The position numbers and the translations under genes are program-made. Below are positions 1 through 55,964 of a stretch of 64,000 bases of DNA, in pieces. Origin of the DNA: a virus; IMG/VR virus record IMGVR_UViG_3300042554_001774, positions 1 through 64,000 of that record; one strand, given 5' to 3'. The notes below the pieces were generated by a model. The model had not been told where the DNA came from, did not search any database, and worked only from the letters and a program-made list of their open reading frames with translations. The stretch's first letter is position 1. The number at the start of each line of letters is the position of its first letter.

Positions 1-3000
1 GATATTTTGGCGGCTTGAGTTTCAGCAGCGGATCGAGTCTGATTGACAATGAACATCTTTCCGTTAGCGCCGAGAGTAGCTCTTTCGATGAGTTTATTCC
101 ATATCGCATTAAACTGCTCGAGGCCGATTCTGTTTGGCGAATCGAAGAGACCGGACTCGGTATGTGCTAATGCGAGTGCAATGTCGTAATCTACGACGTT
201 GCTTCTATTTAGGAGGGCACTGTTTGGGTCGTCGAGCATCTTCTGGTTGAGAAGTGTATCCAGGACTAGTTTCTCGTTGGTGGACAAGGATCCTTGGAAT
301 TCATCGCCCAGCATGTATTCAGCCAGATTGCGTGCGCTGATTGAGTGCTCAAGTGTCTCATCTACTGCGCTCACAGATATCATGTCAACGCCTGGGGTCT
401 CTATTCCCTTGGCAAAATCCTTACGCGCTGCGTCTCGGATTATTTGCATGATGGTCTCTATCTGTCGGTTACCTCTATCTGTGGCAAATTTATTTACCGT
501 GTAGCCTGGATCTTTCTCAATCTTGTTCAGCAATTCTTGATACTCATCCCTGTGGGCTTTTTGGCTGAGGTATTTGAGGTTGTCTTGTGTATGCAGTATC
601 TTGACATTGACCATCGGCCCTTTATTGTTTTTTAAGAATCGATTCTTGATTAGCGTGTGGCCGATGTCGCGAAACTGCCCGTTCTTGTCGATGAACTCGT
701 GGTTCTCGATCATTTTAATAACTTCAGGTTGGTCAATAAAATCACTTGCGCGACTAGCGTCATTGAATGCTGCGGATGTGGCAGCTTTTCTGACAGAGAT
801 CTGCATTCTTTTAAGTATCTCGTTCCTTGCTTGCTGGGCGAGCGACTCTAGGCTGTCCTTTGTGGCTTGGTCTATATTTTCTTCGGCAATAACCTGCCGG
901 AACTTATTCATGCTAAGGAACAGTTCCTCTAAGGTTTTCTTATTGTCTTTTTGAGGTTCTGGGCCTATGGCTTTTTTGATCAGCTTGTTGTATTCGTTTA
1001 AGCCATTGCTCCTGGAGTCCAGCTCTTCCTTTTGTGCGGAAGTTGGGTTCTTTCCAGTCTTCTTTTTTCTCAGTGAGATCTTTCTTTGCAAGCTAGACAA
1101 TTCTGATTCTGCTTGCGACTTTTGACTAATAAGATCTTGGGCTTGCGTGATCCTTTCGTTTAGCTCTGCGATCTCTCGCGTGTTGTCTTCTGCAGCATCA
1201 CCCTTAAGCGACTTGCCTTTATCGCGCAATTGCTGCACTTGCTGCTTAAGCGCCTCAAGTCCGCGTTGCTCAGGAGTGGCATCTAGAGCCTCAAGGACCG
1301 CCTTGGCGTCTTGCAGCGACATGTCTCTGACGGCCTGTCCACCTTGATATTTGACTTCTTTTGCGGCTTCTTTTACTGTCTCTACAGGCGCTGCGGCTTT
1401 TGATATTTTAGCCTTGGCTTTTTTGCTTGTTTCTGTAGGTGACTTTAGATATCGTTTGATGATGTCGATATCAGTGTCGGTGATTGAGGCGTCTGCTTTT
1501 TTGAGTGCATCAATCGCTTCGTCGCTAAGCTCCGTCACGTCCTCAAGTTTTTGTGCTCCACGGATCGTGTCTAGGTTATTCAGGATGATGCTGGACACCT
1601 TGTCTGCAGCGTGTTTCTTTGCCAACTTGTCAGGTCGCTTGGTTTTCATTGTTACCTGAAGCGCTTCATTGACTGCGCCAGCCAGTGACCCTAAGAAGTC
1701 CTTGTCACCTGTGATGCCAAGCTTGTTGCTTAATGTTTCAGTGATTCCGTGTACTTTGATGTACTTGTTGATGAATTGCTGGTCGAGATCCTGCAGTAGC
1801 TTGATAGCTTCTGGAATGTCTGCATCTGGAATGGATTCATTGATATTCTTGACTAAGTTAGTCATGAATTCTTGGTATTGTTCCGGAGTGCTTACGTTTG
1901 CCAGGTCAAAGCGCACCTGCTCCATATTGTCTCTTAGGTATGGCAGCTGATCTGCTTCGAATATCTCGATGCCTTCAGCTTCATCTGGGTCAAGAATCTG
2001 CTTGAGTCTCTTGGTTCTCTTGGCTGGATCTGCTGCTTGCTCTGCGACTTGTTCTGCAGTAGCCTTCTCTGCGGCAGTTTTCCTTTTGCGAAGTTCCACT
2101 GGACCGACTGGCATTTGCTTGGGGATGGCGGTAGTCGGTTCTTGGGTCTTCTTGGGTTTTCTGGTGTCTACGGATTTTGTGCCAGGTGTCTCTGTGATAA
2201 CTCGCTTGCTGCTTTGGCTCCTTTGGGCCATACGGGACAGGATATTGTCTGCTGGCCTGTCGTCTATTGGAGTTAGCGGCAGTTCCAACTGTCCTGGACT
2301 GGGCTTCAGCGCGGGAGGTTCTACGGGAGCGGCTGCTTCTTCGAGTGCATTGCGAGAGGTACTACTTCCGCTCCCAGTGGTTTGCTTCTTTGCTTTGGCG
2401 ACAATACGAAATAGATCTGGTGTTGACGTTGGCTCTATATTGAATTCTAGGGTGTCAGATGCATTGTTTAGTCGCGCTGCGACTCGCTCCACGAAGCTAT
2501 ACTCGTCGAGCATGATTTTCTTGCCTGGGGTTGCTTGGTTTGCTATGTCTTTGTAAATTCGATTCCCAACTTCCAGCATTTGCGATACTGCCTCTTTGTT
2601 GGGTTGGATTAAGCCGGAAGGCTTAATTTCGAATCTACTGTCGTTTTCCAGTGAGTCGAGAAGTGTTTTTCTGTCTTGTTTGTTTATGCCTAGGTGTTCG
2701 GATATCTCATTTATAGATGGCGGATTTCTCCATCGTATCGCTATTTGAAGCTTTGCTCTTTCGATACCTTCGCTGTCCATCTTCCCTGTGTACGCCAAGG
2801 AGTCTTTGATTCTTTGGGTGATGTCGTGGCGACTAATGAGGTTTCTATTTGCAGTTCGCTGATTTGCTGCGTCAAGGATGACGTTTCCATCCACGGATTT
2901 TTTAGGTGCTTCTGTAGAAGCGGCTGCTTCTTCGAGTGCATTGCGAGAGGTACTACTTCCGCTCCCAGTGGTTTGCTTCTTTGCTTTGGCGACAATACGA

Positions 3001-6000
3001 AATAGATCTGGTGTTGACGTTGGCTCTATATTGAATTCTAGGGTGTCAGATGCATTGTTTAGTCGCGCTGCGACTCGCTCCACGAAGCTATACTCGTCGA
3101 GCATGATTTTCTTGCCTGGGGTTGCTTGGTTTGCTATGTCTTTGTAAATTCGATTCCCAACTTCCAGCATTTGCGATACTGCCTCTTTGTTGGGTTGGAT
3201 TAAGCCGGAAGGCTTAATTTCGAATCTACTGTCGTTTTCCAGTGAGTCGAGAAGTGTTTTTCTGTCTTGTTTGTTTATGCCTAGGTGTTCGGATATCTCA
3301 TTTATAGATGGCGGATTTCTCCATCGTATCGCTATTTGAAGCTTTGCTCTTTCGATACCTTCGCTGTCCATCTTCCCTGTGTACGCCAAGGAGTCTTTGA
3401 TTCTTTGGGTGATGTCGTGGCGACTAATGAGGTTTCTATTTGCAGTTCGCTGATTTGCTGCGTCAAGGATGACGTTTCCATCCACGGATTTTTTAGGTGC
3501 TTCTGTAGAAGCGGCTGCTTCTTCGAGTGCATTGCGAGGCTTGCTGCTTGTCGCGTAATCTTCGCCATCGAACAGTCCAGGCTGTCCTCTTCTCGGGGTG
3601 CCTTGAGCTGTATCTAGCAGTGGATTGCCAGTTGTTGCTTCTGGCTTCTTTGTGAACATGCCATCGAACAGCTTTTGCTTCTCTTCGCTCCAATCGCGAC
3701 TCAGTGGCGAGTTTTTGATTCTTTTGTATATGCCACTTATCCACTGCTTCATCTTGGCGAATATCGCCGTAAGGTCGCTTGTTGGAGCCTTTCCTGTTGC
3801 GAGATACTTTTCGAAGTCTCGAGCAAAAGCCTCTTCTTGTTCTATAGTCCACTTGCCGTCTTTGACTAGGTATATTTTCTCAGCTAAGTCTTGTAGGTCC
3901 TTGCGGAGTCGTCTGCGCGCAACGTGTCCTAGTTCGTGGGCAACTGTAGAGATGTTCGCGTTTTCGAATAGAAATACTTTCGCGAATGCATTAGGTTCGT
4001 TGAATCGAACTGCGCCACGGACTAGTTCCTTGCCTTTCGTTCCTGTTCGCTGATAGAGCGGCTGCCCTTGTTCCAGAATCTCCTTGCGCATTTGGGGTGT
4101 GATACTGAATACCTGGACGTCGCCAGAGAATTTCTCTGGAACAACAGATTCCACCCAGGATTTAGCTTCGTTTAGCGTTTTGAATGCCCTTAGGGAGTAC
4201 TCTCCTGAATTTATAGATGCTTCGTACTTGTCACCACGCTTGCGAACGCTTGCTTTTAGGTATCCATCTTGACGGAGGTCTAGTTCGTCTACGGAATATA
4301 AGTTAGCTTTCTCCCATATACGTCCCTGCTTTGCGTTATTACCTATACCTTGGAAGCTTCCCCATCGCTTAGTGAGCTTCTTCAAGTCGGCGTTCAGTAT
4401 CTCGTCATAGAATTTCCCTAGTGCAGTATCTGGACCGCCAACAGCTCTCGCCGCGTCTGATCCTTTGACAATGTGAACTTCTTCATATCCGTTTTCTGCG
4501 GCTTCTTTTAGGATCTTTTTAAGTGCTAGTGTTGTCCAGGATTTTTTGAACGGACCTAGCGCGACATCTCCTGTGTATCCAGTTTCGAGTGCTAACTCAT
4601 AGTCTTGGCGGGCGGATTCTAGTTCTCGTTTAGCGGCCTCCCAGGCTTTGTCTGCTTTTTCGGCGAGTGCAATATGCTCTTTGGAAGATCCTGCGTGGAT
4701 GTGATTGTCCCAGTAGGTCATCTCGCTAGTGGCTTTTTGTAGGCGAGTCTCTGCTTGAGTCACCTTTTCTTTTAGTAACTCCGCGTCTACTTTCTTTTTG
4801 TACCCTCTCTTTGATCCGGCTTGATGCCAGTCGCTCTGGATCTCTTGCACCCTAAGGGCTTTCTTGCCATTAGGCAGCGCCACATCGTCCATGCGAATAT
4901 GGGCGACTATGTTTGGTTGGTCGAAATGCGGGCTATGGTATTGGCCAGAAAGTAGCTCTCTAGATAGGTTTTGAAATTGAAAATTCCAGTCAGCATCTTC
5001 TTCAGTCAGTCCTTGTGATGTGAGTTTCTCGTATAGATCATCGTGAGCCTTGTCCCATGCATCTTTCGTGTCTTTATTGTCAAGTGTTATCAGTTTTTCG
5101 CGGTAAGTCCCCTTTATACCTCCAGGTATAGTGTAGTTACTGTATCTGGAGTGTCCGTCGAGTTTTATGCTCTTTTTCAGTTTGTCTACTGCACTATTGA
5201 GCGACTTTCGTTCGTTTGCGACTTGACTGCGAAAGCGATTGACTATGCCTGGCGGAAGTCCTGGTGAATACTGTTGCAGGTTTTCAATTAAGTATCCGCT
5301 GTAGTGGACGGTATAGATATGTCGAATAATCTCGTTGTCGTTTAATCCAGGTGGCACGGTGACTATGTCGCTTAGGTCTTCTTCGCCCGATATTGAGACG
5401 CGAAGGTCGCCATCGCTTTTGGCTCTTTTGGCGACTATCTTTAAGCTTAGTGGGTTATGGTTTGTGTTGAGTATTTCGTTAACTAAGTCGCTTTCTAAGG
5501 CGTTGGTTTTTTGTTGATGCTCGGTGTATAGTCTGTCGAGTTCCTGGGCGATTGAACTGTCATCTCCAAGCGTTACATCCTTGATCTTGACCTTGTGCTC
5601 ATCGACCCATTCTTGGATTTCTTGCTTGGTTTTTGGTTTCCCGTCAGAGAATAGTCCTTCGATATCTAGATCCTCGATCTCGTCGTCCTTGACTCCATAT
5701 TTCTTGGCTGTAGCTAAGAATTGATCCTTGCCGATCTTCCCTCCTACTTTCCCTTCCTTGAGCATGCGATCCGTTTTGTAGTAGAAGTCTTCTGCTTCAG
5801 ATTGAAACAGGATATTCGGATTCGTAGCGTCAAACGTGCCTTTGTTTGCTGTGGCTGATTTGATTTGGGGTGAATCAAAAGCAACCCATGTGGTTGATTT
5901 GATTTCATTTCCATCCCAATCCCACGTTATGTCTGGCATTTTTATGCCGTCGTACCCGAGCAGTTGAGCCTGATTTTTTAGCTTATTACGAAACCCTTGG

Positions 6001-18718: not shown

Positions 18719-19696
18719 TTAAGCACCCATATCCAAGTCTTTTAGGATCGCCTCTGCCAGGAAATTGTCACCAGGAACCCCCCACCCAAACCGAACGTCA
18801 AACCCTTCAGCGCCAGCGTCCTTAAGGACTTGCTTGAAGTAGTTCCTTAGGTCCTCGGCTGACCTAAAGGCAGGTCGCCCCTGTCGCAGCCATAGCTCCA
18901 TTAAGCACGCCAGGAAACCAGCCCCTTGGGGTGTTGCCATGGAGGTTCCGCTGAGGGTTCTCCAGCCACTCCCGCTGTTCGAGAACGAGATGACATTCGA
19001 CCCTGGGCAGGCCCAATCGATCTCTCGCCCGCCAGAGCTGAAGTTAGATATCTTTCCGCCCTCAGCGTAGGAGCCTGTACATAGGCAGTTTTCGTACTTA
19101 GCTGGCCAGCCAATCGTATTTGAGCCGTTATACCCTGCGTTGCCAGCGGCTGCCGTTACGATACAACCCTTAGACCAGGCGTAGTCAATAGCATCGTTGG
19201 TTGGCTTATACGATCCGCCACCACCAAGTGACATGCTGATGATGTGCGCGCCTTGATCAGCAGCCCACCTGATGCCCGCTGCAATGCCGTCAGAACCGCC
19301 TGAACCTCCGTTAGACAATACCTTGCCGACGATGAGGTCTGCATCAGGCGCTAAGCCAAGCGAGTTACCTGCAGTATCCCTGCGGCACATGACACTACCT
19401 ATGCAGTGACTACCGTGGCCCGACCGTAGATCCTCAGTTGACTCGCCAGAGATGAACGACTTCTTGGCGATTGGCTCTGGCCCGAAGGCGTGCTTTGTGT
19501 ATCCAGTGTCCAGTACGGCTACACGGATATCCTTGCCGGTGGCAACTTGCCATAGCTTCTCCTTGATCCAGTCGAACCGATGCCACGCATCTGGAACCGT
19601 ACTGGCCTCATGGACGAAGAGTGGCCCAATTACATCGTCTGGGGGGAGCGATACAATTGGACCACCGAATTCAGGACCGTCATAAATGTCTTCCAT
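18719..19696 (-). CDS. Subtilisin-like serine protease (S8 family)
   Basis: All three catalytic motifs are present: Asp63 in VAVLDTGYT, His94 in SGHGSHCIG, and Ser252 in SGTSMATPQGAG. The oxyanion Asn lies in TAAAGNAGYN and the substrate strand in MSLGGGGS. About 325 residues, close to a bare catalytic domain; only about 55 residues precede the Asp strand, so there is little or no propeptide and no signal peptide. I prefer the ATG at 19696 (AAGGAA upstream) over a GTG at 19714. Subtilases are unusual in phages. Here it could process virion proteins, degrade a proteinaceous host surface layer, or serve in lysis, since no lysozyme is visible in this window. Confidence 0.9.
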   Translation of the reverse strand: MEDIYDGPEFGGPIVSLPPDDVIGPLFVHEASTVPDAWHRFDWIKEKLWQVATGKDIRVAVLDTGYTKHAFGPEPIAKKSFISGESTEDLRSGHGSHCIGSVMCRRDTAGNSLGLAPDADLIVGKVLSNGGSGGSDGIAAGIRWAADQGAHIISMSLGGGGSYKPTNDAIDYAWSKGCIVTAAAGNAGYNGSNTIGWPAKYENCLCTGSYAEGGKISNFSSGGREIDWACPGSNVISFSNSGSGWRTLSGTSMATPQGAGFLACLMELWLRQGRPAFRSAEDLRNYFKQVLKDAGAEGFDVRFGWGVPGDNFLAEAILKDLDMGA

Positions 19697-19713
19697 GACA
19701 GAATGTTCCTTCA

Positions 19714-19731
19714 CTCGCCATATAAGGCGAG
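19714..19731 (-). promoter_or_regulatory. Small hairpin just upstream of protease RBS
   Basis: A perfect 6-bp stem (CTCGCC/GGCGAG) with a 6-base loop sits immediately 5' of the AAGGAA ribosome-binding site of the protease gene, preceded by a T-run on the minus strand. It might modulate translation or protect a processed 5' end. It is not a standard terminator because the T-run is on the wrong side. Confidence 0.35.
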
Positions 19732-23853: not shown

Positions 23854-24338
23854 TTACTCGCTCCGCTATTGCAACTTCCCATTTTTGTTCTAGCCTTATT
23901 AATGGCTCTTTTGACGATTAACTCCGACACGAATCTGGAGAATGGTAGCCCTCTTTGGTGCGATGCCTCCTTTAGTCGATGGCAAATGTAATCCATCTGT
24001 TTTTCGCACATATCAGGCCCCCACCTATTCATTTTAGCTTCGAGATCTTGGCATGGCTTGCATCCATGTTGGTTTGGGATAGGGAACCATGATATGATCT
24101 TCTTGAGTTCCGTTCCAACCATGCCAGTTTCGCTGGTTGCCATGCTGCTGGTTGACATGCTATTAATCGGTTCGCTTGGTAGGTCCGGGTACTCATTCTT
24201 AATGTTGAGGTACTCGTCTGGCTCTATGTAGAAGAACTCGTCGTCAGGTACTGTCGATGACGATTGAAGTCTCTCTATGTATCCACTTGCCTTGCGGTCC
24301 TGTTTTGATGCAGCCAGTGACTTTCGGATCTTCATCAT
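23850..24338 (-). CDS. Small CxxC helical protein in sugar cassette (162 aa)
   Basis: The basic N-terminus and acidic middle are followed by a CKPCQDLEAKMNRWG motif, a second Cys pair (MCEKQMDYICHRL) and helices ending in a basic Cys-containing tail. The CxxC-plus-helices layout is found in small proteins beside glycosyltransferases. The ATG overlaps the stop of the poly-Ser gene, so the two are translationally coupled. It resembles the C-terminal half of the protein at 20211-20666. Function unknown. Confidence 0.6.
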   Translation of the reverse strand: MMKIRKSLAASKQDRKASGYIERLQSSSTVPDDEFFYIEPDEYLNIKNEYPDLPSEPINSMSTSSMATSETGMVGTELKKIISWFPIPNQHGCKPCQDLEAKMNRWGPDMCEKQMDYICHRLKEASHQRGLPFSRFVSELIVKRAINKARTKMGSCNSGASN

Positions 24339-25138
24339 GGAGGTAGCTCCTCGTCACATTCTAGGCAGGTTACGTAGAAGTATTTTAGACACCCATCAAA
24401 CATTGCGATGTAGTGTTCGGCTGTACCAGTCCCGCACCCAATAAAATCAAGCTCGACCCACATATCAAGAGTTCCGCCCGGAGGTATGGATATATTGGTG
24501 GAGTCTCTATTGAAGTTTATACCAGTTGGGTAGCCTCCAACGTAACCGTGAGACGCCGCAACCACATGGCCAAGCAAGCAATTTTGCTGCACTGGTGCAA
24601 ACTCACAGTTGAAACTCGAAGGGTCAGACTCCCCTGCTCTACATGGCGGAGCACCTGCTTGGCAGTCCTCGCCATCTATTGGGTGTGTTGTCCATGTGCA
24701 TAATCCATCGTTGAATATCGTCCAGGATATTCTGACTCTTGCTGGTATCTTATTACCATCACTATCTATAGTGGAGCAGGCTCTTTCGGGACTCATTGCA
24801 GGTGGTGGATCATTTGAGACTCCTCTAGGTGCTCGACAGATTGAGTCAAAAATAGGTCCGCAGAATTCGTTAGGGAAGGCAGTATATCCATCCCACGCAA
24901 TGCAGCAATTACATGGCGCGGAACTAGAACTGGAACTAGAACTGGAGCTAGAACTGGAACTAGGGCTGGAACTAGGTCTGGAACTAGGGCTGGAACTAGA
25001 ACTGGAACTAGAACTAGAACTGGAACTGGAACTGGAACTAGAACTGGAACTAGAACTGGAACTGGAACTGGAACTGGAACTAGAGCTAGAACTGGAACTG
25101 GAGCTAGAGCTACCGCAGCAGCAGAATCTTGTTGGCAT
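24335..25138 (-). CDS. Cys and poly-serine protein, putative surface glycoprotein
   Basis: 267 residues. After MPTRFCCCG comes an almost pure serine tract of about 64 residues broken only by three Pro and one Arg, then a Cys-rich start (PCNCC) and a beta-rich, Cys-paired domain of about 180 residues with NDGLCTWTTHP and PPGGTLDMWVELDFIGCG. The serine codons are mixed (AGT, AGC, TCC, TCT). The tract could be a flexible stalk and an O-glycosylation target, given the galE and two transferases directly downstream. The Cys-rich C-terminal domain is probably exposed and disulfide bonded. No domain recognised with certainty. Confidence 0.7.
   Translation of the reverse strand: MPTRFCCCGSSSSSSSSSSSSSSSSSSSSSSSSSSSSSSSSSSSSSSSSSPSSRPSSSPSSSSSSSSSSSSSSAPCNCCIAWDGYTAFPNEFCGPIFDSICRAPRGVSNDPPPAMSPERACSTIDSDGNKIPARVRISWTIFNDGLCTWTTHPIDGEDCQAGAPPCRAGESDPSSFNCEFAPVQQNCLLGHVVAASHGYVGGYPTGINFNRDSTNISIPPGGTLDMWVELDFIGCGTGTAEHYIAMFDGCLKYFYVTCLECDEELPP
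24919..25112. repeat. Degenerate hexamer repeat encoding the serine tract
   Basis: Imperfect tandem GGAACT/AGAACT hexamers (plus-strand reading) fill about 190 bases. They encode Ser pairs on the minus strand. The pattern can expand or shrink by slippage in steps of two codons without breaking frame. Confidence 0.9.
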
Positions 25139-41654: not shown

Positions 41655-41903
41655 ATGTGTAGGCAATGGTTCTTTTTAAGAAAGGTGTTTATGGACAGTA
41701 TTCCTCCAACGGAAGAGTGGCTATCAGCTAAGGAAGTGGCGGCAATCTTTGGCGTCAGCGTGTCTCGGGTTTATTTTGCGCATAGTACTGGACGCAGGAA
41801 TTCGTCTGGATCGCTAGTGCGGCTGACTATGTTTCGGACTCTGTCCGGACTGGCTACGACCAGGAAGCTCGTGGATGAGTTCCTGCTGAAGCTGAATGGT
41901 TAG
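41655..41903 (+). CDS. Small HTH / excisionase-like DNA-binding protein
   Basis: Plus strand, divergent from the scaffold operon. The conserved part WLSAKEVAAIFGVSVSRVYF is a MerR/Xis-type helix-turn-helix. Two starts are possible: ATG at 41655 (AAGGA close upstream) or ATG at 41691 (AAAGGTG upstream). Next to a recombinase gene it is a candidate recombination directionality factor; it could also regulate the late operon across the 136-bp divergent region. Confidence 0.7.
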   Translation: MCRQWFFLRKVFMDSIPPTEEWLSAKEVAAIFGVSVSRVYFAHSTGRRNSSGSLVRLTMFRTLSGLATTRKLVDEFLLKLNG

Positions 41904-42090
41904 AAGCCCATGCACTGGAAATTGTATCTTATGTGATACAATATGCATTGGCTGTGGCAGGACTCTCGATGAGATATTTCGATGGCGCGCTATGCGCGAC
42001 TGCGAGAAGCTCGAGGTTTTGAGGCGGACGGGAGCACTGGACTGTGAGTCCACTTCCAGCGATGAATCAGCCGAAGGTGATCCGCGCTAA
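41896..42090 (+). CDS. DUF1289-family small Cys protein
   Basis: 64 residues with SPCTGNCILCDTICIGCGRTLDEI and a conserved W, the DUF1289 pattern with Cys likely binding a metal or Fe-S centre. It overlaps the upstream HTH gene by 8 bases and its 3' 101 bases overlap, tail to tail, the end of the recombinase gene. Confidence 0.7.
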   Translation: MVRSPCTGNCILCDTICIGCGRTLDEIFRWRAMRDCEKLEVLRRTGALDCESTSSDESAEGDPR

Positions 42091-43417
42091 ATGGCTTCTT
42101 GAGGCTGAGTCTTGCCTTGTGTTTGCACTTGCCCCACAAGCTGCTGCCAATCATCTCGTGCATGATGTCTATCTGTCTCAGCCTGCGCTGCACATAGGAT
42201 CGCTTGAGCATTGTCAGATTGGCCTTGACGCCTAGTTCCCTGGCCTTGATGGCTATGATCATGTCCTCGATTTGAGTGGTAGACAATCCGAGTTCGTACT
42301 TCATGACCCATATCTGACCGGCTTGAAGCAGTTGCTTCTTATCGACAGCCAGTCTCTTTTGGTGTTCGCTAATCTGTTCTATTTTGAATCCAGCGCGAGG
42401 GAGTCCATTTGGCCTTCCGTTTGCTTGGCACCATGCAGCAGTTTCCTTGTTTCGATTAGACTTCATCTGGCTTTCTAATTGTGCAATTGAAGCCATCAGC
42501 GATATCCATTCCTTACCCTGCCCTGTGTCTGTCCTGATTCGCTCGCAGACGAAGTGAACGTAAGCGCCTTTTCGCTGTATCTCGGCTATTGTCTTCATGG
42601 CGTCCAGGGTATTTCGCCACCCTCGATCCATTCGGTAGATAACGACGTCATCCCCTGGCTGCAGGTCGTTCATAAGCCGCTTACCGGCCTCTCGCTCCAT
42701 AAATGGCACTGAGAAGGCGCTAATGGCAGGATCGGAGTAAACTGGCCCTACAGGGCACTGTAGCTTCTCTGCGAGGTCCTCTGCGTATTTGGCATTGGCA
42801 GTGCCTTGCCACTTCAGGCCGAGCCCTGAGACGTACTGTGGCTCTGTGGATACACGTTCGTACATGCGGATCGTGCCTGTTGGTCGCTCCGTTTTGATCT
42901 TTTGAGGCAGGACGAATTCGCTATTCATCCATTTGACTTTTGGCTTCGTGTTTGACGATTGCGAGTTTTGAAGCCTCTTGATTAGTAGTGCTTCTCTAAT
43001 TCGCTCGCTTGTCACATCAGAAGCGTATTGAGCCATAGCGGCTAGGATATTCGCCTGTAGCTTCCCGGAGGCTGTGGTCGTGTTGATCTGGTTGTTGATG
43101 AAATGCACGAAGATACCCTTCTCCTCGAAGAAGTGCATCAAGTTGCAGAAGTCTCTCAGGTTTCTGCATAGTCGGTCGATCTGCAAGCATATAACGTGGT
43201 CGCCCGGCTTTACCTGCTCGATGATGCGACCACCACCTGGGCGGCCCGCAAAGGATTTGCTCCATGCGCTGACGCCAGCATCAGTAACCACAACTTGCTC
43301 AGCCTCTGGTATAACCGAAGTGGCATAATTGGTTGTCCTGACCATTTGGTCTGGTATACTGATGTCAGAGGCTTTGGAGTCCTTATGGCTAACGCGATTG
43401 TAAAGGAATGCTTTCAT
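41990..43417 (-). CDS. Serine recombinase with two catalytic domains in tandem
   Basis: 475 residues with two resolvase/invertase-type catalytic domains. Domain 1 (about 1-148): catalytic Ser10 in YNRVSHKDS, then IDRLCRNLRD with Arg82 and Arg85, and the E-helix QYASDVTSERIREALL. Domain 2 (about 182-328): Ser190 in MYERVSTEP, MDRGWRNTLDAM with Arg265 and Arg268, and QLESQMKSNRNKE. Both keep the nucleophile and the paired arginines, so both may be active. The C-terminal 145 residues are basic, helical and HTH-like rather than a standard zinc-ribbon large-recombinase tail. Likely the phage integrase or resolvase. The start codon shares CATG with the sigma gene. Confidence 0.85.
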   Translation of the reverse strand: MKAFLYNRVSHKDSKASDISIPDQMVRTTNYATSVIPEAEQVVVTDAGVSAWSKSFAGRPGGGRIIEQVKPGDHVICLQIDRLCRNLRDFCNLMHFFEEKGIFVHFINNQINTTTASGKLQANILAAMAQYASDVTSERIREALLIKRLQNSQSSNTKPKVKWMNSEFVLPQKIKTERPTGTIRMYERVSTEPQYVSGLGLKWQGTANAKYAEDLAEKLQCPVGPVYSDPAISAFSVPFMEREAGKRLMNDLQPGDDVVIYRMDRGWRNTLDAMKTIAEIQRKGAYVHFVCERIRTDTGQGKEWISLMASIAQLESQMKSNRNKETAAWCQANGRPNGLPRAGFKIEQISEHQKRLAVDKKQLLQAGQIWVMKYELGLSTTQIEDMIIAIKARELGVKANLTMLKRSYVQRRLRQIDIMHEMIGSSLWGKCKHKARLSLKKPFSADHLRLIHRWKWTHSPVLPSASKPRASRSRA

Positions 43418-44105
43418 GGGTAAACGTCGAAAAGGAGGGATGTTTTCACCGAGTCCCTATGTGACTGGTGCGAAGCAAATGTCAACTGGAGAGGAATTGC
43501 AAGCGATTGCCGTATACCAGAAGACGAGAGATGGTAGTTTAGCGGAATCGGTACTTAAGTCAAGGGCCTCTTGGGTGCAGAGTATCATTGCTAATATACC
43601 CATGCCCAGCTTTGCTGACATGGATACGGTGTTTTCTGATGTCATGCTGGCCGTCTATGAGTCGCTCTCGAACTACGATGAATCCAAGGCGGCCCTGTCC
43701 ACATACCTCTGGAGGGTTATCTATAATTCTGCACTGACCAGCGCCAAAGAGCAGGATACAAATGCTGAGCAGTTTACCCCTGAACTGATCGTCGATGAGG
43801 CCGTTGATTACTCTGAGTGCATCGAAAACGCCCGAAAGGTCATCTTGAATACACCCCCCGAGATGCTCAATGAGCGATCCAGAAAGGTTGCGCACATGAT
43901 GCTCAAGGGTTACTCCGTTCAGGAGATAGCAAGCACCTTAGACGTGACCAAGTCCGTTGCCGGTGAGATAATCACCAGCATACGTCGATACATCGCTTGG
44001 TGCATGGTCAAGCAGAATCTATCTGCAGAGCCGGTCATTAGCGACAGCGATCTTATGGATCTGGCTGAGGAGCATGAGCGGGCCAATGTGACCAAATGGC
44101 GGTAG
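43416..44105 (+). CDS. Phage RNA polymerase sigma factor (sigma-70 family)
   Basis: 229 residues. Region 2 is in the first half (SVLKSRASWVQSIIANI, a YESLSNYDESKAALSTYLWR stretch); region 4 HTH is at about 150-195 (ERSRKVAHMMLKGYSVQEIA, then TKSVAGEIITSIRRYI). AAAGGA lies 8 bases before the ATG. Plus strand, opposed to the recombinase with overlapping start codons. Probably directs host RNA polymerase to phage promoters. Confidence 0.85.
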   Translation: MGKRRKGGMFSPSPYVTGAKQMSTGEELQAIAVYQKTRDGSLAESVLKSRASWVQSIIANIPMPSFADMDTVFSDVMLAVYESLSNYDESKAALSTYLWRVIYNSALTSAKEQDTNAEQFTPELIVDEAVDYSECIENARKVILNTPPEMLNERSRKVAHMMLKGYSVQEIASTLDVTKSVAGEIITSIRRYIAWCMVKQNLSAEPVISDSDLMDLAEEHERANVTKWR

Positions 44106-54824: not shown

Positions 54825-55964
54825 TCAAACAGGAACAGCACAACCGGAGTTGCGACTTACATTCCCTAGCCCTGACGCCTGATGCCCCAGGCGTTTAATA
54901 TTTAAAGCAGCATTCAAATCTCGATCAACTGAACAATGACAACCACCACAATTAAAAACTCGAACATCAAGAGGCATGTTTTGAACACGACCGCATTGAT
55001 GACAGGTTTTGGTTGTCGGTTCCCATTGTCCGATTTGCTCGGTACTTTTACCACGCTTGTACGCTACCCACTTCAGAATCTGCAAGAAACTATCGAACGA
55101 AAGATCGGATATCTTCCTTCCCCAAAGTTTCTGCATGGCTGCGATATTAAGCGTCTCAAAGTACATTATGTCAAACCTATCACACAACGAATGTGCCAAC
55201 TTAAAGAACCAATCGGTTCTCCGGTTGGCGATTCGCTCGTGTGCTCTGCTCAATCGATACTTTGCTTTTCGGCGATTCTTGCTGCCTTTCTTTTTACTTG
55301 CCAGTTCTCGGTTGCACTTGGCAATTTCAGCCATGCTAACCTTAAAGAACTGCGGACTTTCAATGGTAGTGCCGTCGCTGCAAGTGAGGAATTGCTTGAG
55401 TCCAAAATCAAAGCCAGCCGTATGAATGGAACCTGTGACTTGATTTTGAGTCTCTTCCTTCTCACAACTAAACACTACCCAAAAACGATTCATGCTATCT
55501 CGCTTGAGCGTGCAAGTTTTGATATTGCCTTCGATCTCACGAGATTTAATGAATTTGTACTGATACTTACCAAAACGGATTCGATTTTCGCCAAGGTATG
55601 CCCAACCTGCCTGCTTGAACGTGACGCTTCCATGCCCAGCGGAACGCTTGAACTTGGGCTTGCCTCGCTTCAGCCCAGCCCGCGTCTTGATCCACTTAAA
55701 AAACGCTTGGTACGTCAAGTCGAGTTTTTCAATGACCGCCTGGACACATTGCGATCCAACGACTTGCCAAGCTTCGCGACGATTGCGAAGCTTGGCAATG
55801 TGCTTCATCAGCTGGAATTTATTGCAGTGCTTCTTGAACAATCGATAGTGGGTTTTTTGAAAAGCAACACAGTGATTGCGAATGCGAGTGGCTGTAGTCA
55901 CAAGGCGATGAAGCCTGTGATTCTTGCTGCTCTCGTACATTCGGAATTTGTAGCTGATTCTCAT
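54825..55964 (-). CDS. tnpB: TnpB RNA-guided nuclease of IS200/IS605 family
   Basis: 379 residues. RuvC Asp in AGFDFGLKQF, Glu in YFETLNIAAM, and final Asp in SVDRDLNAALNI are all intact. The zinc ribbon has CHQCG and CGGCHC. The N-terminal helix region and length are normal. It directly follows tnpA. In this family it is guided by an omega-RNA to cut DNA flanked by the element's target motif, keeping the element after excision. Confidence 0.95.
   Translation of the reverse strand: MRISYKFRMYESSKNHRLHRLVTTATRIRNHCVAFQKTHYRLFKKHCNKFQLMKHIAKLRNRREAWQVVGSQCVQAVIEKLDLTYQAFFKWIKTRAGLKRGKPKFKRSAGHGSVTFKQAGWAYLGENRIRFGKYQYKFIKSREIEGNIKTCTLKRDSMNRFWVVFSCEKEETQNQVTGSIHTAGFDFGLKQFLTCSDGTTIESPQFFKVSMAEIAKCNRELASKKKGSKNRRKAKYRLSRAHERIANRRTDWFFKLAHSLCDRFDIMYFETLNIAAMQKLWGRKISDLSFDSFLQILKWVAYKRGKSTEQIGQWEPTTKTCHQCGRVQNMPLDVRVFNCGGCHCSVDRDLNAALNIKRLGHQASGLGNVSRNSGCAVPV

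Follow-up and report, generated by a model that had tools for sequence, protein, structure and literature searches.

Does a single open reading frame of a virus encode a serine recombinase with two catalytic domains, and if so, how might such an enzyme work? The question was raised by a stretch of 64,000 nucleotides (the window; positions 1 to 64,000 of the IMG/VR record IMGVR_UViG_3300042554_001774), in which a recombinase gene at positions 41990-43417 of the minus strand was delimited using the list of open reading frames, Pfam, PHROGs and codon bias. The genome record is 91 kb long and the longest near-identical contig has 107 kb. The gene forms a single open frame that starts with ATG, contains zero internal stops and encodes a protein of 475 aa. 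An earlier reading, made from the sequence alone, had placed two catalytic domains in this one frame, and the profile searches bore this out: the Pfam family Resolvase (PF00239) matched the protein in two stretches (total E-value 4.6e-51), and two PHROG recombinase families also matched it twice.

The first catalytic domain (D1; residues 1-154, 42956-43417, minus strand) was defined by the PF00239 match and the AlphaFold model and contains a long E-helix (residues 116-153). It begins at the first methionine in the same way as in the relatives of the protein (MKAFLYNRVS compared with MRAFAYVRVS in the Microcystis phage MACPNOA1) and has no DNA-binding domain behind it. A linker (residues 155-182, 42872-42955, minus strand), which AlphaFold predicts to be disordered and which is coding-like in its codon bias, leads to the second catalytic domain (D2; residues 183-332, 42422-42871, minus strand), corresponding to the second PF00239 stretch. 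The protein ends with a C-terminal domain (residues 333-438, 42104-42421, minus strand) and a basic tail (residues 439-475, 41990-42103, minus strand).

The predicted nucleophiles were located using the sequence and the alignment. These are Ser10 of D1 in the motif YNRVS (43388-43390, minus strand) and Ser190 of D2 in the motif YERVST (42848-42850, minus strand). The same approach placed the arginine motifs DRLCR of D1 (residues 81-85, 43163-43177, minus strand) and DRGWR of D2 (residues 264-268, 42614-42628, minus strand). The RVS nucleophiles and DRxxR arginines that had been noticed earlier in both halves were thus confirmed, and the marks of the serine recombinase superfamily, namely a PF00239 domain, a nucleophilic serine and conserved arginines, were found twice in the protein.

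For the comparison of the active sites, 87 other catalytic domains were aligned and the residues were numbered according to the gamma-delta resolvase. The residues R8, S10, D36, R45, D67, R68, R71 and R125 are present in both D1 and D2. The position R119 is occupied by serine in both domains; among the comparison domains it is arginine in 66 of 87 and serine in seven, including phi80 PinL. In addition, D1 has lost the equivalents of E118 (A132; Glu in 77 of the 87) and Q14 (S14), and D2 has lost that of E124 (N321; Glu in 50 of the 87). As the core residues are complete in both halves, the possibility of a decayed second domain was rejected. The concern that one of the domains might be catalytically dead found no missing core residue in either D1 or D2 to build on. 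Judging by these residues, both domains are probably catalytically competent, and the serine at R119 together with the loss of E118 in D1 and E124 in D2 may have made one or both of them less active.

The predicted structures agreed with this layout. D1, modelled alone by AlphaFold, was a separate domain with a full E-helix (mean pLDDT of 88), and D2 in the full-chain model had a pLDDT mostly above 90. The best PDB match of the D1 model was the catalytic domain of the TP901-1 integrase, and structures of the gamma-delta resolvase also matched it; the model of D2 likewise matched serine recombinase structures. In the linker of about 28 aa, residues 158-174 had a pLDDT below 50, indicating disorder. 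The full-chain model reached a pTM of 0.52 and did not fix the placement of D1 relative to D2, for which reason it was left out of the argument about domain pairing.

The C-terminus had been described earlier as unusual. This description covers really two things, a helical domain (approximately residues 344-430) and a tail with a low coding signal (approximately residues 440-475) lying opposite another reading frame. The domain was modelled as two strands and three helices. It had no convincing match in Pfam, and none to PF07508. As its position is that of the short PF07508-like domain in the relatives, and in view of its predicted fold, we presume that it serves as the single DNA-binding domain of the chain. 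The tail is basic and disordered in the model, and the coding signal drops in it compared with the rest of the gene. Most of it is antisense to a DUF1289 (PF06945) ORF on the plus strand (41896-42090, E-value 1.2e-13), which runs over the 3' end of the recombinase gene. The last ~35 residues are probably incidental and are most simply explained by a convergent overlap with this ORF.

The DUF1289 ORF is preceded by a small ORF (41655-41903, plus strand) with a weak likeness to helix-turn-helix proteins, both being convergent with the recombinase gene. Its position would suit a gene for a directionality factor. On the other side, the recombinase gene diverges from a sigma-70-like ORF (43416-44105, plus strand). 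The predicted start codons of the two genes lie in one CATG palindrome (43415-43418), and no intergenic room is left in which either gene could have a promoter. No clear Shine-Dalgarno sequence was seen ahead of the recombinase start.

The protein was then compared with the known groups of serine recombinases. D1 and D2 fell into one catalytic-domain clade with the mid-size recombinases of cyanobacteria (~235-250 aa) and of the Microcystis phage MACPNOA1 (ARB07024.1), which share 33-35% identity with D1. In these proteins a single catalytic domain leads into a short domain that begins like PF07508, whereas the window protein has two catalytic domains and its C-terminal domain goes unrecognised by Pfam. 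D1 and D2 lie within this clade, the enclosing branch having a support of 91/92, while the C-terminal domain agrees with this type by its position and predicted fold only. The small serine recombinases (gamma-delta and Tn3 resolvases, Hin/Gin invertases and phage invertases such as phi80 PinL) resemble the window protein in their fold, core active-site residues and PDB matches. However, they consist of one catalytic and one DNA-binding domain in ~200 aa (PMC11607074), compared with two catalytic domains in 475 aa here. The large serine integrases (TP901-1, phiC31, Bxb1) are similar in catalytic fold and total length, but their extra length is made up of DNA-binding and coiled-coil parts; in the window protein PF07508 is missing and a second PF00239 domain stands in its place. 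Nor does the protein have the N-terminal DNA-binding domain of the IS607 type, as it starts straight with a catalytic domain. The two-gene systems of SCCmec, Phi1207.3 and Phi-m46.1 also produce two catalytic domains from one locus (PMC4260502), but as separate polypeptides rather than as one chain with one C-terminal domain. The engineered zinc-finger, TALE and dCas9 recombinases link the catalytic domain to another module through a linker (PMC3084882, PMC5175349), but these fusions are artificial and carry a single catalytic domain per chain.

A maximum-likelihood tree of 89 domains was used to examine the origin of the two halves. In this tree D1 and D2 were sisters (support 91/74) in a group that also holds the protein of the Microcystis phage MACPNOA1 and four cyanobacterial proteins, this whole group being enclosed by the branch already mentioned. 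The sister pairing is not conclusively supported, D2 being on a long branch. The two domains are 31% identical over 144 residues and have in common the stretch SA[WF]S..F..R and the PGD spacing. Because D1 and D2 pair in the tree beside single-domain recombinases, the catalytic domain has likely been duplicated internally, which is the simplest reading of the sequences.

Serine recombinases bind as dimers to two sites, which are brought together in a tetramer; four strands are cut and one half of the complex turns by 180 degrees (PMC11607074, PMC9943657). How a single 180-degree turn is chosen is not understood (PMC11607074). With these features in mind, we propose that the gene encodes a phage serine site-specific recombinase whose catalytic domain was duplicated within the gene, the two copies working as a covalently joined catalytic pair, and we give this reading an even chance of being right. 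D2 and the C-terminal domain would form an ordinary mid-size recombinase of the cyanobacterial and Microcystis-phage kind, and D1 would be an extra catalytic copy without a DNA-binding domain, held on a flexible tether of ~28 residues. Two chains would then make up a normal synaptic tetramer with its four catalytic domains, the D1-D2 pair of each chain being anchored to the DNA via the single C-terminal domain. Ser10 and Ser190 would both attack the DNA, and strand exchange would proceed by subunit rotation. In this proposal, we infer that both serines are active, as well as which domains pair, which sites are used and what role the enzyme has in the phage (integration and excision, resolution or inversion).

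Several observations speak against the linked catalytic pair. The relatives have one DNA-binding domain per subunit, and a pair of catalytic domains with one such domain would be unusual. Both halves carry the serine at R119, D1 is without E118 and D2 without E124, and no recombination sites were found in the searches given below. Moreover, the fusion is carried by one viral population only, and the sister pairing of D1 and D2, with D2 on its long branch, is not strongly supported. Since one DNA-binding domain is presumed per chain, the protein is not simply two recombinases joined together.

The arrangement of the domains also allows for a different division of labour, in which D2 would pair with D2 on a site whose half-sites are read by the two C-terminal domains. 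The pair of D1 domains would then be accessory or regulatory, like the extra subunits of the Sin and Tn3 resolvase synaptosomes, or would capture the partner DNA with little sequence specificity. We regard this as a genuine possibility, although on the whole an unlikely one. It fits the lack of a DNA-binding domain behind D1 and the loss from D1 of the E118 and Q14 equivalents, together with its serine at 119. Moreover, extra subunits serve regulation in known resolvases (PMC9943657, PMC2764113). However, D1 retains its full set of core catalytic residues, whereas a purely regulatory copy could do without them.

If the linked catalytic pair is correct, its tether might do more than hold the domains together. 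Two active catalytic subunits would be tethered permanently; this extension of the proposal is speculative and rather doubtful. Were both domains of a chain to share a DNA site, the tether would cross the rotating interface. It would then limit or direct rotation and tie cleavage at two half-sites to the recognition of only one of them, acting as a built-in device that allows one 180-degree turn. If they were placed in the same rotating half, the tether would be no hindrance to rotation. Two active domains on a flexible tether would thus make rotation testable, as a tether that crosses the interface and one that does not would give different topological products. Furthermore, a chain whose two active sites, if both work, share a single DNA-binding domain might recognise sites that are shorter or asymmetric, a property useful in recombinase engineering.

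The duplication may also have been neutral, with D2 doing the work and D1 being a passenger heading for decay. We consider this improbable. The occurrence of the fusion in one viral lineage only, as well as the departure of both domains from the consensus on the E-helix, would suit such a history, but the 31% identity indicates that the duplication is not recent, and yet the core residues and the coding bias of D1 are intact.

Instead of a duplication within one gene, two adjacent recombinase genes could have been fused. Neighbouring pairs of serine recombinase genes do occur in the Sphingomonas plasmid pDS1 and in several Bacillota genomes, and the paired genes of Phi1207.3, Phi-m46.1 and SCCmec (PMC4260502) offer a similar starting point. 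Nevertheless, the grouping of D1 with D2 in the tree and the stretch and spacing that they have in common speak against this origin, to which we give very little credence.

An artefact in which a frameshift, a misassembly or a chimera joined two genes, as the sequence-only reading had cautioned, was rejected as hardly credible, since the locus is identical in three assemblies, the ORF has neither a stop nor a change of frame, and the codon bias is coding-like and even through D1, the linker and D2 with no break at the junction. In the two further IMG/VR contigs the gene is 100% identical, and so is the collinear DNA around it over tens of kilobases. As all three contigs are near-identical, they may represent one viral population, so that their agreement counts against misassembly and not for conservation of the fusion.

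Other natural fused tandems were searched for in several collections. In a tblastn search of 50,697 phage and 72,556 plasmid records, no match covered 80% of the recombinase. IMG/VR and 84,980 GTDB genomes were scanned with a DNA pattern in which DRLxxR is followed at a set distance by YxRVSTxxQ; among the matches checked, two domains in one frame were found only in this virus, the pattern covering only the spacing of the window protein. The joint sensitivity of the pattern, measured on 40 recombinase genes obtained by other routes, was ~0.3 with both Asp codons and ~0.26 for the genome scan, in which one Asp codon was used. With such a low sensitivity, further cases with the same spacing could have escaped the genome scan, perhaps a dozen or so. 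About 1,850 genomes (cyanobacteria, Bacteroidota, Acidobacteriota, Actinomycetota and Bacillota searched by protein, and 60 Pseudomonadota by PF00239) yielded no fused tandem among the matches listed. The plasmid pDS1 was rejected as a candidate, its two domains being in two separate ORFs. The open-access literature yielded no paper on a natural serine recombinase that carries two catalytic domains. In line with the novelty suggested earlier for this architecture, it is at least rare in the collections searched.

As to the role of the enzyme, the phage also encodes a tyrosine-type integrase of 372 aa (84729-85847, minus strand, outside the window), which matched the PHROG integrase family phrog_1 with an E-value of 1.3e-18. 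Its match to PF00589 (E-value of 1.6e-5) is below the cut-off, and the first conserved arginine is not obvious. The serine recombinase therefore need not be the integrase of the phage. No match to the tyrosine-type integrase was found in phage or plasmid records; its style resembles that of planctomycete integrases, which offers a lead to the host. Attachment sites, which the sequence-only reading had suggested looking for, were searched for, and neither att nor inverted-repeat sites stood out. There were no convincing direct repeats near the recombinase gene and no tRNA gene in the window, and no resolution site was identified for the recombinase. The idea of a DNA invertase acting on an adjoining invertible segment was rejected as well: the window contains only weak, chance-like inverted repeats, and the three assemblies run collinear, none showing an inversion. 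A search for relatives of the phage via the terminase and the major head protein returned only the same virus in IMG/VR, and the terminase was unmatched in INPHARED.

Several other features of the genome were observed. A TnpB-type protein (54825-55964, minus strand) has the OrfB_IS605 and Cas12f1-like TNB domains and is at most ~47% identical to copies on cyanobacterial plasmids. A subtilase (Peptidase_S8) is encoded at 18719-19714 (minus strand), and an ORF at 24335-25138 (minus strand) contains a long poly-serine tract derived from repeats spaced by 12 bp. Direct repeats 591 bp apart lie in the window at 2314-3549, where the contigs G000 and G002 differ in arrangement. Finally, a repeat protein (67914-69473) is built of TSLPEGFNPTVGG units, and its array varies among the three near-identical contigs.
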